Source: Williamsoniiplasma lucivorax ATCC 49196 (GTDB lineage Bacteria > Bacillota_I > Bacilli_A > Mycoplasmatales > Mycoplasmataceae). From it: a DNA stretch of 48,529 nucleotides. Each line of letters begins with the position of its first letter. Position 1 is the first letter of the stretch. Position numbers and translations under genes: made by a program. The notes under the pieces were generated by a model. It ran no database searches, was not told where the DNA came from, and saw only the letters and a program-made list of their open reading frames with translations. The stretch is from positions 1-48,529 of the forward strand of contig NZ_KI912415.1 in NCBI RefSeq assembly GCF_000518285.1, given 5' to 3'. Of this stretch, positions 40,373 to 44,275 are shown one piece after another.

Positions 40373-40834
40373 ATGAAATCTAAAAATAGTTTTGATTCAA
40401 AACTTGAATCTGAGCATTATATTGATTTACAAATTTTTATTCATCGTAACGAATTAGTTGTTAAATCAAACTTAAAAGAAATTGAAGAACAACTTTTTGC
40501 GATTGGTGATGATATAATCAACTATACAAATGAAGATAAAGCATTCTATGCTGAAGCAATGATAAACATTATCACAAAGGCGGTCAAAATGATTCAAAGC
40601 GGATTAACACCAATTCAACCAAAACCGGTTTTACCAAAAATTAAGAAACCAAAAAAAGATCGATTTGCAGAAATACAAGCTCGATTAGATCGCTTGGAAC
40701 TTGAAAACATGCAATTAAAAGCAGAAATTGTTGAATTAAGAGCAGAAAATGCTCAATTAAAAGCAGAAAATGCCCAATTGAAAGCAGAAATTGTTCAATT
40801 AAAAGTTAGATTATCAAAATACGAACAAGTCTAA
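40373..40834 (+). CDS. heptad-repeat coiled-coil protein
   Basis: A 153-residue protein without signal peptide or membrane segment. Residues 1-100 are mixed (LFAIGDDIINYTNEDKAFYAE, then MIQSGLTPIQPKPVLPK), followed by a Lys-rich hinge and a heptad coiled coil (LRAENAQ, LKAENAQ, LKAEIVQ) to the end. The gene has AAGGGG nine bases before its ATG and a perfect terminator after its stop. The coiled-coil tail resembles the partial gene at the left end of the window. A shortened second copy follows directly. Function unknown. Confidence 0.8.
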   Translation: MKSKNSFDSKLESEHYIDLQIFIHRNELVVKSNLKEIEEQLFAIGDDIINYTNEDKAFYAEAMINIITKAVKMIQSGLTPIQPKPVLPKIKKPKKDRFAEIQARLDRLELENMQLKAEIVELRAENAQLKAENAQLKAEIVQLKVRLSKYEQV

Positions 40835-40843
40835 GTCGCATTT

Positions 40844-40872
40844 AAAAATTGCCATCAATGATGGCAATTTTT
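40844..40872 (+). terminator. terminator of the coiled-coil gene (copy 1)
   Basis: AAAAATTGCCATC, loop AAT, GATGGCAATTTTT. An almost identical hairpin ends copy 2. Confidence 0.9.
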
Positions 40873-40878
40873 AATAGT

Positions 40879-41190
40879 ATTGAAGAACAACTTTTTGCGA
40901 TTGGTGATGATATAATCAACTATACAAATGAAGATAAAGCATTCTATGCTGAAGCAATGATAAACATTATCACAAAGGCGGTCAAAATGATTCAAAGCGG
41001 ATTAACACCAATTCAACCAAAGCCGGTTTTACCAAAAACTAAGAAACCAAAAAAAGATCGATTTGCAGAAATACAAGCTCGATTAGATCGCTTGGAACTT
41101 GAAAACATGCAATTAAGAGCAGAAAATGCCCAATTGAAAGCAGAAATTGTTCAATTAAAAGTTAGATTATCAAAATACGAACAAGTCTAA
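40879..41190 (+). pseudogene. 5'-truncated tandem copy of the coiled-coil gene
   Basis: From 40879 the sequence repeats that from 40481 almost base for base but starts at codon 37 of the parent gene, so the N-terminal part is missing. It reads openly to TAA at 41188. In-frame ATGs at 40858 and 40861 exist, but they lie in the terminator stem of copy 1 with no ribosome binding site. Against copy 1 it lacks two heptads (42 bases). It is most likely untranslated, a by-product of tandem duplication; low expression from the in-hairpin ATG cannot be excluded. Confidence 0.75.
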
Positions 41191-41199
41191 GTCATATTT

Positions 41200-41228
41200 A
41201 AAAATTGCCATCATTGATGGCAATTTTT
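41200..41228 (+). terminator. terminator copy 2
   Basis: AAAAATTGCCATC, loop ATT, GATGGCAATTTTT, the duplicate of the hairpin at 40844. Confidence 0.9.
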
Positions 41229-41302: not shown

Positions 41303-41308
41303 TATAAT
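41303..41308 (+). promoter_or_regulatory. -10 box of the mgtA leader
   Basis: TATAAT, 30 bases before the leader ATG, preceded by TTGG; no good -35 is seen. It lies between the upstream terminator and the leader. Confidence 0.6.
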
Positions 41309-41337
41309 GTAAAAGTAAGAAAGAGTGGTGAGTATTT

Positions 41338-41433
41338 ATGACATTAGTTAATGTGGTATCAGGTGAAGGCCCTGAGTCCGAAAGTTTTAAATGATTAAAT
41401 AATGTTATAAGTCAACCACTTTTTTGTGACTAA
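41338..41433 (+). CDS. 31-residue leader ORF upstream of mgtA
   Basis: An ATG follows GGTGAG by six bases and opens a 31-codon frame (one TGA, Trp19) to TAA at 41431, 40 bases before mgtA. The peptide carries an acidic, proline-containing stretch SGEGPESESF in its first half. In enterobacteria the MgtL leader uses acidic and proline codons to destabilise ribosomes at low magnesium and so turn on mgtA; this is the closest parallel, by position and composition only, not by homology. Nothing else in the peptide is recognised. A spurious ORF is possible. Confidence 0.55.
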
Positions 41434-41450
41434 TTTGTAAAATTATTTAA

Positions 41451-41467
41451 TCCTATCGTATAGGAGG
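41451..41467 (+). promoter_or_regulatory. hairpin covering the mgtA Shine-Dalgarno
   Basis: TCCTAT (41451-41456), loop CGT, ATAGGA (41460-41465) form a perfect 6-bp stem whose right arm contains most of the SD sequence AGGAGG (41462-41467). The mgtA ATG is at 41474. Folding would hide the SD. Confidence 0.65.
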
Positions 41468-41473
41468 AAAGAA

Positions 41474-44275
41474 ATGATTAATTTAAAAACAATTTCTCTC
41501 GTTTCTAAAATCAAAGACAAACAAAAGCCAACATTTGAAAATGAAAAATTAATCAAAAAAATAGCAAGTGCTGATCAAGAAGAAGTGAAGAACATTCTAG
41601 ATTTGAAGCATTTTGGTTTGACTAATGATGAATATCGAGACAGAGAAGAAGAATACGGAACTAATGAGCTAAAAAAACATCGCTTTAATTTATTTTTAGA
41701 GATTATTAAAGCTTATTTGAATCCTTTCAATTTAATATTGCTGACAATTGCCACATATTATTTTTTATCATATGCCACTTTTCAGTTTTGAACTGAAGAA
41801 TCACGTAGTATTTTTGATGTGACTGGGGCAATTGTCATTATGTTTATGATTTTTGCCAGTGGAACAATGACTTTTGTGCAAGCTTTAAGAAGTTATTTTA
41901 TTAGTAAAAAAATTGGTAATATCGTCAAAAGTACAACTGATATTATTCGCCATAAAAATAATGAAAATTTAGTAGATTTTATGCACATTGATGCATCAAA
42001 TCAATTAGATTTAATTAAATTAGGTGAAGAGTTGGATGTTAAAGAACTTGTGCCTGGAGATTTGGTTTTTTTATCAAGTGGAGATATGATCCCGGCCGAT
42101 GTCAGAATCTTATATTCTAAAGATTTATTTATTAACCAATCATCTTTAACTGGGGAATCACTACCTGTTGAAAAACATGCTGCCAATGCCAAAGATACAA
42201 ATAATATTTTAGAGTTTGAAAACATTTGTTACACTGGGACCAGTGTGGTTTCTGGTAGCGGAATTGCGATTGTGATTACTACTGGAAATGATACTTATTT
42301 TGCAACCATTAGTAAAACTATTATGGAAAAAAGACCACAAGGGAGTTTTTCAACTGGTGTCAAAAAAGTGACGAGAGTTTTATTAATTTTAATGTTAGTG
42401 ATGGTGCCAATGGTTTATCTAATTAATGCTGGAGTTGGTTATTCTGGTTGAGATGGAGCTGGTGGCTTTGCTGAAAATCCATGATTTAAAGCAATCTTTT
42501 TTGCAGTGGCCATTGCTGTTGGACTAACCCCAGAAATGCTCCCAATGATTGTGACAACGAATCTGGCAAATGGAGCCGGACGAATGGCGAAAGGCAAAGT
42601 TGTTGTGAAAAAATTAGATGCGATTCAATCATTGGGGGCAATTGATATTTTAGCGACTGATAAAACCGGAACTTTAACAAACGATAAAATTGTTTTAACC
42701 GATTTCTTAACTGTTGATAAACAAAAAGATCCCCGCTTATTAAAATATCTTTATTTAAATAGTTATTACCAAACTGGAATTAAAAACCCGATGGACAAAG
42801 CAATTATTGATTATGTTTCAACTCATCGTTTAAATTTTGATTTACATCAACAACAAAAGATTGATGAAATTCCTTTTGATTTTGATCGCCGTAAATTAAC
42901 TGTCATTTTTGATAGTGAAGCTGAGGGAAGAATTTTAGTCACTAAAGGAAGTATGGAAGAAATTCTAAGTGTTTCAACGCAAGTTTATTACCAAGGTAAA
43001 GTCCAAAAATTAACCCCAAGTATTAAAGCCCAAATCGAAGCTTACTTTTCAAAAATTAATAATCAAGGGAAACGTGTCATCGGGGTTGCTTACAAACCAG
43101 TGGCACAAAACCAAGACCGTTTTTCTCCTCATGATGAAAGCGATTTAATCTTTTTTGGTTTTGCAACCTTTTTAGATACACCAAAACCATCAACTAAAAA
43201 AATGATTAAACTTTTACAAAAATATGGTGTGGAATTAAAAATTTTAACTGGTGATAATGAACAAGTCACCCGTGCGATTTGTAAAATGGTGAATCTTGAG
43301 ATTAAAGGTTTAGTCACCGGTGAGCAAATGGATGCTGCTAGTGAACAAGAAATGAAGTTAATGGTTGAACACGCCAATATTTTTGTCAAGTTAAATCCTT
43401 TACAAAAAGTTAAAGTAATTCAAGTTTTAAAACAAAATGATCATGTTGTTGGTTTTATGGGTGATGGGATTAATGATGCTCCTGTGCTTCGTCAAAGTGA
43501 TGTGGCGATTTCAGTCAATAACGCTTCAGATATTGCCAAAGATGCTTCTGACATTATTTTGTTAGAAAAATCATTATTAGTTTTAGAAAAAGGAATCATT
43601 CAAGGACGTACTATTTTTTGCAACATTTTAAAATATATTAAAGTTACTACTTCATCAAATTTTGGAAATGTTTTATCAATGATTGTGGCAAGTATTATTC
43701 TGCCGTTCCTACCAATGTTGCCTGTGCAAATTTTATTTCAAAATTTAATTTATGATATGTCACAATTTGCTATGGCCTTAGATAATGTTGATGAACACTT
43801 TGTGGCGAAACCGCAACGTTGGCATGCCAATAACTTATATCCATTTGTGCTGATGAATGGACCTGTTAGTTCGATTTTTGACATTTTAACGTTTGTGATT
43901 GTTGGGTTTGGTTATGGTTTAGTGCCAGCTTTCCTCCAACCAGCTACTCCTGCTGAACAAAGTGCCATTGTTGCTCAATTCAATGCTAGTTGGTTCTTAG
44001 TCGGAGTGATTACTCAATCTGTGGTGATGCAAGTGCTACGTACTGAGAAAATTCCGTTCATCCAATCACGTTCACCATGAATTGTTTATTTATCAATGTG
44101 CTTAGTGATTGGGGTAACATTCACAGTTGTCTTCTCTCCAGTTAACTCATTATTACAAATGAAATCTCCCGAATTACCATTTATTGCGATTATGGTTGGG
44201 TTAGTCACCGCTTATCTCTTCTTAGCCCAACTTGTCAAAATGCTTTATATTAAAATCTTTAAGCGTTGGCTATAG
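41474..44275 (+). CDS. mgtA: P-type Mg2+-transporting ATPase, MgtA type
   Basis: A 933-residue P3B ATPase. The N-terminal cytosolic segment is followed by paired membrane helices, the actuator motif LTGESLPVE, helix-4 region VGLTPEMLPMIVTTNLA (the MgtA/MgtB signature), phosphorylation site Asp396 in ATDKTGTLTN, the FDRRKLTV and TKGSMEEIL nucleotide-binding parts, LTGDNEQVTRAI, and the hinge GFMGDGINDAPVLRQSDVAISV. C-terminal helices continue through TGA at 44078 to TAG at 44273. Ion specificity is inferred from the family. The leader ORF and SD hairpin upstream suggest regulation by magnesium. A terminator follows. Confidence 0.93.

Follow-up and report, generated by a model that had tools for sequence, protein, structure and literature searches.

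The window analysed here, a 48,529-nucleotide stretch of DNA, belongs to the genome of Williamsoniiplasma lucivorax ATCC 49196 (G000), a Mollicute genome of 1.1 Mb in 31 contigs, in which TGA is read as Trp. It carries mgtA, the gene of a Mg2+-translocating P-type ATPase, which is preceded by a short leader open reading frame (ORF) and by four RNA regions, numbered 1 to 4, that can pair with one another in alternative ways. The features of the locus are the following.

41200-41228, + strand: intrinsic terminator (AAAAATTGCCATCATTGATGGCAATTTTT) of the upstream gene, setting mgtA apart from that gene.
41303-41308, + strand: putative -10 box (TATAAT) of the leader-mgtA transcript.
41320-41347, + strand: region 1, containing the leader Shine-Dalgarno (SD) sequence, AUG and first codons; its partner is region 2.
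41324-41332, + strand: leader SD, AGTGGTGAG (family form AAAGAGGTGGT).
41338-41433, + strand: leader ORF of 31 codons with a TAA stop.
41362-41382, + strand: acidic/Pro codons 9-15 (GEGPESE), including the rare Ser codon TCC at 41377-41379.
41393-41425, + strand: region 2, at the end of the leader ORF, pairing with region 1 (through 41399-41425) or with region 3 (through 41393-41413).
41432-41458, + strand: region 3, pairing with region 2 (through 41432-41453) or with region 4 (through 41440-41458).
41459-41481, + strand: region 4, containing the mgtA SD (ATAGGAGG) and AUG, hidden by region 3.
41474-44275, + strand: mgtA, 933 residues, matching TIGR01524 with 938.5 bits (cut-off 610.75).

The original prediction of a 31-codon ORF with its own SD, located 40 nt 5' of mgtA, is confirmed in its coordinates: the ORF starts with the ATG at 41338, ends with the TAA at 41431-41433 and encodes the 31-residue peptide MTLVNVVSGEGPESESFKWLNNVISQPLFCD (TGA being read as Trp), and the mgtA ATG is at 41474. 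The TATAAT box, combined with the mapped 6-7-base spacing between the -10 element and the transcription start of Mesoplasma florum promoters (PMC7745072), would place the start of the leader-mgtA transcript at about 41314-41315, a few bases 5' of the leader SD. No Rfam family, including the M-box riboswitch (RF00380), reaches its gathering score at this locus, as anticipated for the M-box from the sequence, and a scan of the leader at E values up to 10 returned chance matches only. Further upstream, two tandem and almost identical coiled-coil ORFs (EIVQLKAENAQLKAE repeats) occupy 40373-40834 and 40849-41190; the latter lacks the N-terminal part of the former, which suggests a partial duplication.

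The mgtA orthologues and their upstream regions were taken from 60 genomes, in 12 genera, of the family to which the window belongs (f1). A script found a leader of 23-44 codons before mgtA at 50 loci in nine genera; one further leader (L022), spotted by eye, stands outside these 50. The majority of the relatives covered have such a leader. All have the same place and architecture, with an SD mostly of the AAAGAGGTGGT form, and very different sequences, as seen from the peptides MTLVNVVSGEGPESES, MATSPLPLEDSPESGY, MSPLSSFNDEVP, MSIPSV... and MVVSGYSERK. A -10-like box lies upstream of every one of the 50, its end being 23-44 nt, mostly 26-28 nt, from the leader ATG; because such a match alone is expected by chance in about 34 of 50 leaders, the tight spacing is the informative part. 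Among 26 mutually dissimilar representatives, the frame of the leader is open in every one, as against 4 and 2 for the two remaining frames. Leaders of the g7/g9 type have a start motif that is present a single time in each of 25 genomes, in every case before mgtA. A covariance model (R1) based on leaders of the g7/g9/g11/g3 types has a single hit in each of 27 genomes, recovering the leaders of its own type and a weak one in g10. The R1 search did not recover the leader of the window; these elements are too diverged in sequence for a single model. Several f1 loci have no such leader, namely the first mgtA copy of genus g8 and some more distant paralogues. The approximately 200 bases 5' of this first g8 copy (L027-L033, L035, L036, L040) hold a conserved set of alternative hairpins, ATTTAGGA/TCCTAAAT versus CCTAAATTTATAATTTAGG, and no leader ORF; this set may represent a relic or a switch of another kind, and in several g8 genomes another mgtA copy retains the leader.

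Since the sequences are not reliably alignable, we used an alignment-free permutation test in which each arm is paired either with its own partner or with those of the remaining representatives (own versus swapped). This test was used instead of folding with region 1 masked, because masking gave mixed results for the accessibility of mgtA across species: the mgtA AUG becomes more accessible in many of them, but not all, and in g9 leaders of the L060 type the predicted stem over this AUG remains shut. In f1, three pairings are specific, each with p < 5e-5: 1:2, between the leader SD/AUG and the leader end (own -20.4 versus swapped -14.3 kcal/mol), 2:3 (-15.05 versus -7.20 kcal/mol) and 3:4, which covers the mgtA SD/AUG (-11.18 versus -8.70 kcal/mol). 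The control pairings 2:4, 1:4 and 1:3 show no specificity in this family (p = 0.87, 0.34 and 0.93, respectively). For the 18 leaders that can be aligned, the covariation score of 1:2 is 0.328, as compared with 0.055-0.143 for slid versions of the same pairing. The comparison thus defines three coevolving predicted helices, of which neighbours are mutually exclusive, with the mgtA ribosome-binding site in region 4. Their mean strength decreases in the order 1:2 > 2:3 > 3:4, which fits the need of a default-OFF switch opened by ribosomes on region 1. The leader stop lies a median of 6 nt past region 2, and the two positions vary together (r = 0.89, one outlier excluded; none of 20000 permutations is as tight), so that a ribosome reaching the end of the leader would cover region 2.

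In the window, the helix between 41320-41347 and 41399-41425 has a duplex energy of -23.3 kcal/mol (z = -5.6, none of 200 shuffles being as good), and the U-tract at 41420-41425 belongs to its region 2 arm. The long-range pairing first proposed, AAAGAGTGGT (41320-41329) with ACCACTTTTT (41415-41424), is correct but forms merely the outer part, or base, of this longer helix. The whole leader (41315-41500) folds with an energy of -42.6 kcal/mol (z = -3.7; 0 of 200 shuffles). The 6-bp hairpin TCCTAT/ATAGGA (41451-41456/41460-41465), proposed to cover the mgtA SD, is present, one of its arms lying in region 4, but is not a conserved unit: among the relatives it occurs as such only in the closest one (L002). 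Judging from the comparison, the conserved element over the mgtA start is the larger 3:4 pairing, of which this hairpin is part. The original prediction named the upstream regions of mgtA in relatives as the place to check it, and there the ORF, a structure hiding the start and the long-range pairing are all kept and covary.

Families f3, f5 and f7, which belong to the same order, also have leaders before mgtA, with other sequences, e.g., MELQSGERSS, MDIPSYERSY, MDICSHSSQPDEYYS and MTDSDSIYNN. In the own-versus-swapped test, in which these leader starts were picked by eye, making this part less firm, 1:2 and 3:4 coevolve (p < 5e-5 for both) and 2:3 shows no coevolution (p = 0.71); the alternative partner of region 3 is here formed by the start of the leader and its coding region (1:3, p = 0.0002). 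The alternative pairing being 1:3 in f3/f7 and 2:3 in f1, the switch would not be of one fixed design. In five f7 loci (L135, L141, L148, L179, L180), the anti-SD before mgtA reads GCTACTCC, GCTCTCC or GCTGCC and has two possible partners, namely the SD of mgtA and early codons of the leader (AGTAGC, GGTGAGC, GCAGC); this amounts to a second topology for the switch. In much of f7 (g24), mgtA is not preceded by a leader. An M-box Mg2+ riboswitch lies directly upstream of mgtA in 5 of the 248 genomes of the order, all of them spiroplasmas of f5 (L126-L130), and ends within about 130 bases of the matched mgtA start. A search of Spiroplasma contigs returned, besides one distant ATPase, mgtA loci that have M-boxes, and the literature searched held no paper naming both the M-box riboswitch and Mollicutes.

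We propose that the f1 leaders are ribosome-controlled attenuators of mgtA with the 1:2/3:4-versus-2:3 logic of Salmonella mgtQ, which we regard as the likely reading of the locus. The promoter box, the leader ORF kept open in frame, the three predicted helices, the placement of the stop and the identity of the gene are supported by the comparison; the order of states that we infer is as follows. In a leader free of ribosomes, region 1 would pair with region 2, leaving region 3 free to pair with region 4 and to hide the mgtA start (OFF). Ribosomes that pause or fall off early would keep region 1 open and would not reach region 2, which could then pair with region 3 and free the mgtA start (ON). 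Ribosomes that finish the leader would be placed by its stop over region 2, preventing 2:3 and restoring 3:4 (OFF). A U-tract at the end of 1:2, seen in about half of the lineages, could make this helix a transcription terminator as well. If the early difficulty arises at low Mg2+, the importer would be produced under Mg2+ shortage. A role of Mg2+ as the signal is suggested by the gene, a TIGR01524 Mg2+ ATPase, and gains strength from the M-box found at this place in f5, which is the best indirect evidence for it.

Part of these data could also be accommodated by a transcription attenuator, in which 1:2 and the following U-tract would act as an intrinsic terminator whose formation is prevented when a ribosome stays at the start or in the early codons of the leader. 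At least five T among the 8 bases past the helix occur in 14 of the 26 representatives, versus a background of 22%, which makes termination at 1:2 possible; the window has ACCAC-TTTTTT, no Rho domain was found in the genome, and Mollicutes depend on intrinsic terminators (PMC7745072). However, 12 representatives have no U-tract, the T-run is itself translated, and the coevolution of 2:3 and 3:4 would not be needed by a pure terminator, and we hold this alternative to be rather unlikely. An RNA that responds to Mg2+ by riboswitch-like folding, independently of leader translation, would agree with the strong alternative helices and with the Mg2+-binding M-box that occupies this position in f5. 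It is very unlikely given the frame open in 26 of 26 representatives, the stop tied to region 2 and the in-frame codon bias; moreover, no conserved aptamer-like core was noticed and no Rfam match was obtained in the leader. The slight excess of synonymous changes between close pairs (31% versus 21% expected) would be compatible with a small protein acting in trans, but the peptides are unalignable between most genera whereas the RNA pairings persist, and this role appears extremely improbable.

Within the ribosome-controlled attenuator, the nature of the sensor deserves separate consideration. The acidic/Pro stretch, which the original prediction likened to the destabilising codons of mgtL, is found in all nine leaders of the window's clade (g1, g2, g12) and is not family-wide. 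The acidic/Pro combination within residues 2-20 is present in 9 of 9 of these leaders as opposed to 3.4% of random protein stretches from the window, a contrast whose p-value flatters the motif because the pattern was chosen with these leaders already in view and because they are related to one another. The motif is absent from the g7/g9 leaders (MSIPS...), and an acidic enrichment across the whole of f1 is not supported, acidic pairs being found in 6 of 26 representatives for a background of 28%. Ribosome destabilisation can therefore not be taken as the established sensor of the whole family. For the window's clade, the early difficulty under low Mg2+ would most likely arise at the acidic/Pro stretch (GEGPESE and its relatives), a plausible sensor there, and in g7/g9 the sensor may be something else.

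Alternatively, the leader may sense, in place of acidic destabilisation, how fast rare codons are decoded (TCC and other C-ending codons of four-codon boxes, for which only U34 tRNAs serve) or the supply of seryl- or prolyl-tRNA. An in-frame TCC is present in 48 of the 50 f1 leaders and is rare elsewhere in these genomes: it makes up 27 of the 71 Ser codons that the representatives have at their first 16 positions, versus 15 of 952 in mgtA, and the other U34-read C-ending codons are also raised (p = 0.001). Codon usage of the genome was drawn from the window. The genome contains tRNA-Ser UGA and GCU, and a search of it for tRNA-Ser-GGA found none. Conservation of TCC for base-pairing is not supported, the surroundings of this codon showing no pairing specificity (p = 0.30), which points to decoding and not to RNA structure. 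Against this explanation, the f3/f5/f7 leaders have few such codons (4 of 66), and two leaders of the window's own genus (L002, L004) have no TCC; codon or tRNA sensing seems doubtful to us. The more specific idea that Mollicutes detect a lack of Mg2+ by the slow decoding of U34-C3 wobble codons, UCC above all, in the mgtA leader is quite unlikely; if true, a codon-anticodon-level Mg2+ sensor would take the place of the M-box as well as of the acidic-peptide sensor in most of f1.

The mgtQ-like attenuator looks like a widespread new version of a Mg2+-control device so far known only from gut bacteria. The literature searched describes no Mollicute mgtA leader, which is weak evidence of novelty, subscription journals and preprints being outside its scope. 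If correct, ribosome-based control of a Mg2+ importer would be no enterobacterial peculiarity and would operate in some of the most reduced bacteria, without Rho and apparently without common ancestry. As a single order would use either a Mg2+ riboswitch or a leader-peptide switch before the same gene, how direct-metal and ribosome-based sensors come to succeed each other can be asked directly, and minimal-cell research would gain a testable candidate for a Mg2+-responsive control element.

In attenuators of the trp/erm type, the position of the ribosome on a leader picks between alternative RNA helices. The proposed switch shares this principle and differs in target gene, signal and sequences. 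The M-box shares the place before mgtA, in some f5 genomes of the order, but none is found in f1, where the ORF-based switch stands instead. As to enterobacteria, the predicted likeness to mgtL holds for the logic of a Mg2+ leader, with Salmonella mgtQ being the better parallel. In E. coli mgtL, the ribosome is destabilised at EPDP under low Mg2+ and the response acts via Rho; early acidic residues near Pro are known to destabilise ribosomes (PMC11282234). Both mgtL, of E. coli and Salmonella, and the window present a short leader ORF before the P-type Mg2+ ATPase gene mgtA, with a (here predicted) shared promoter, and in the window's clade the leader peptide has acidic/Pro residues close to its N-terminus. 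These residues are nevertheless at codons 9-15 versus 2-5 in mgtL, no homology is apparent, and mgtL uses a Rho-dependent terminator, whereas the Rho RNA-binding domain was looked for in the 98.7% complete genome G000 and not found, in keeping with the absence of Rho from Mollicutes (PMC7745072); it is this need for Rho that makes mgtQ the closer model. In Salmonella, mgtQ precedes mgtB; its 1:2/3:4-versus-2:3 switch was shown by mutation, and its early acidic residues hinder translation of the leader and increase MgtB, an effect counteracted by L31 (PMC8092293), a protein also present in G000. mgtQ lies inside the mgtC-mgtB operon, whereas the leader of the window is the first element after its putative promoter, has a region 1 that includes the leader SD/AUG and bears no apparent sequence relation to mgtQ. 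Common to both are a leader ORF before a P-type Mg2+ ATPase, acidic early codons, and mutually exclusive 1:2/3:4 and 2:3 pairings, with region 1 in the leader and region 4 as the ribosome-binding site.
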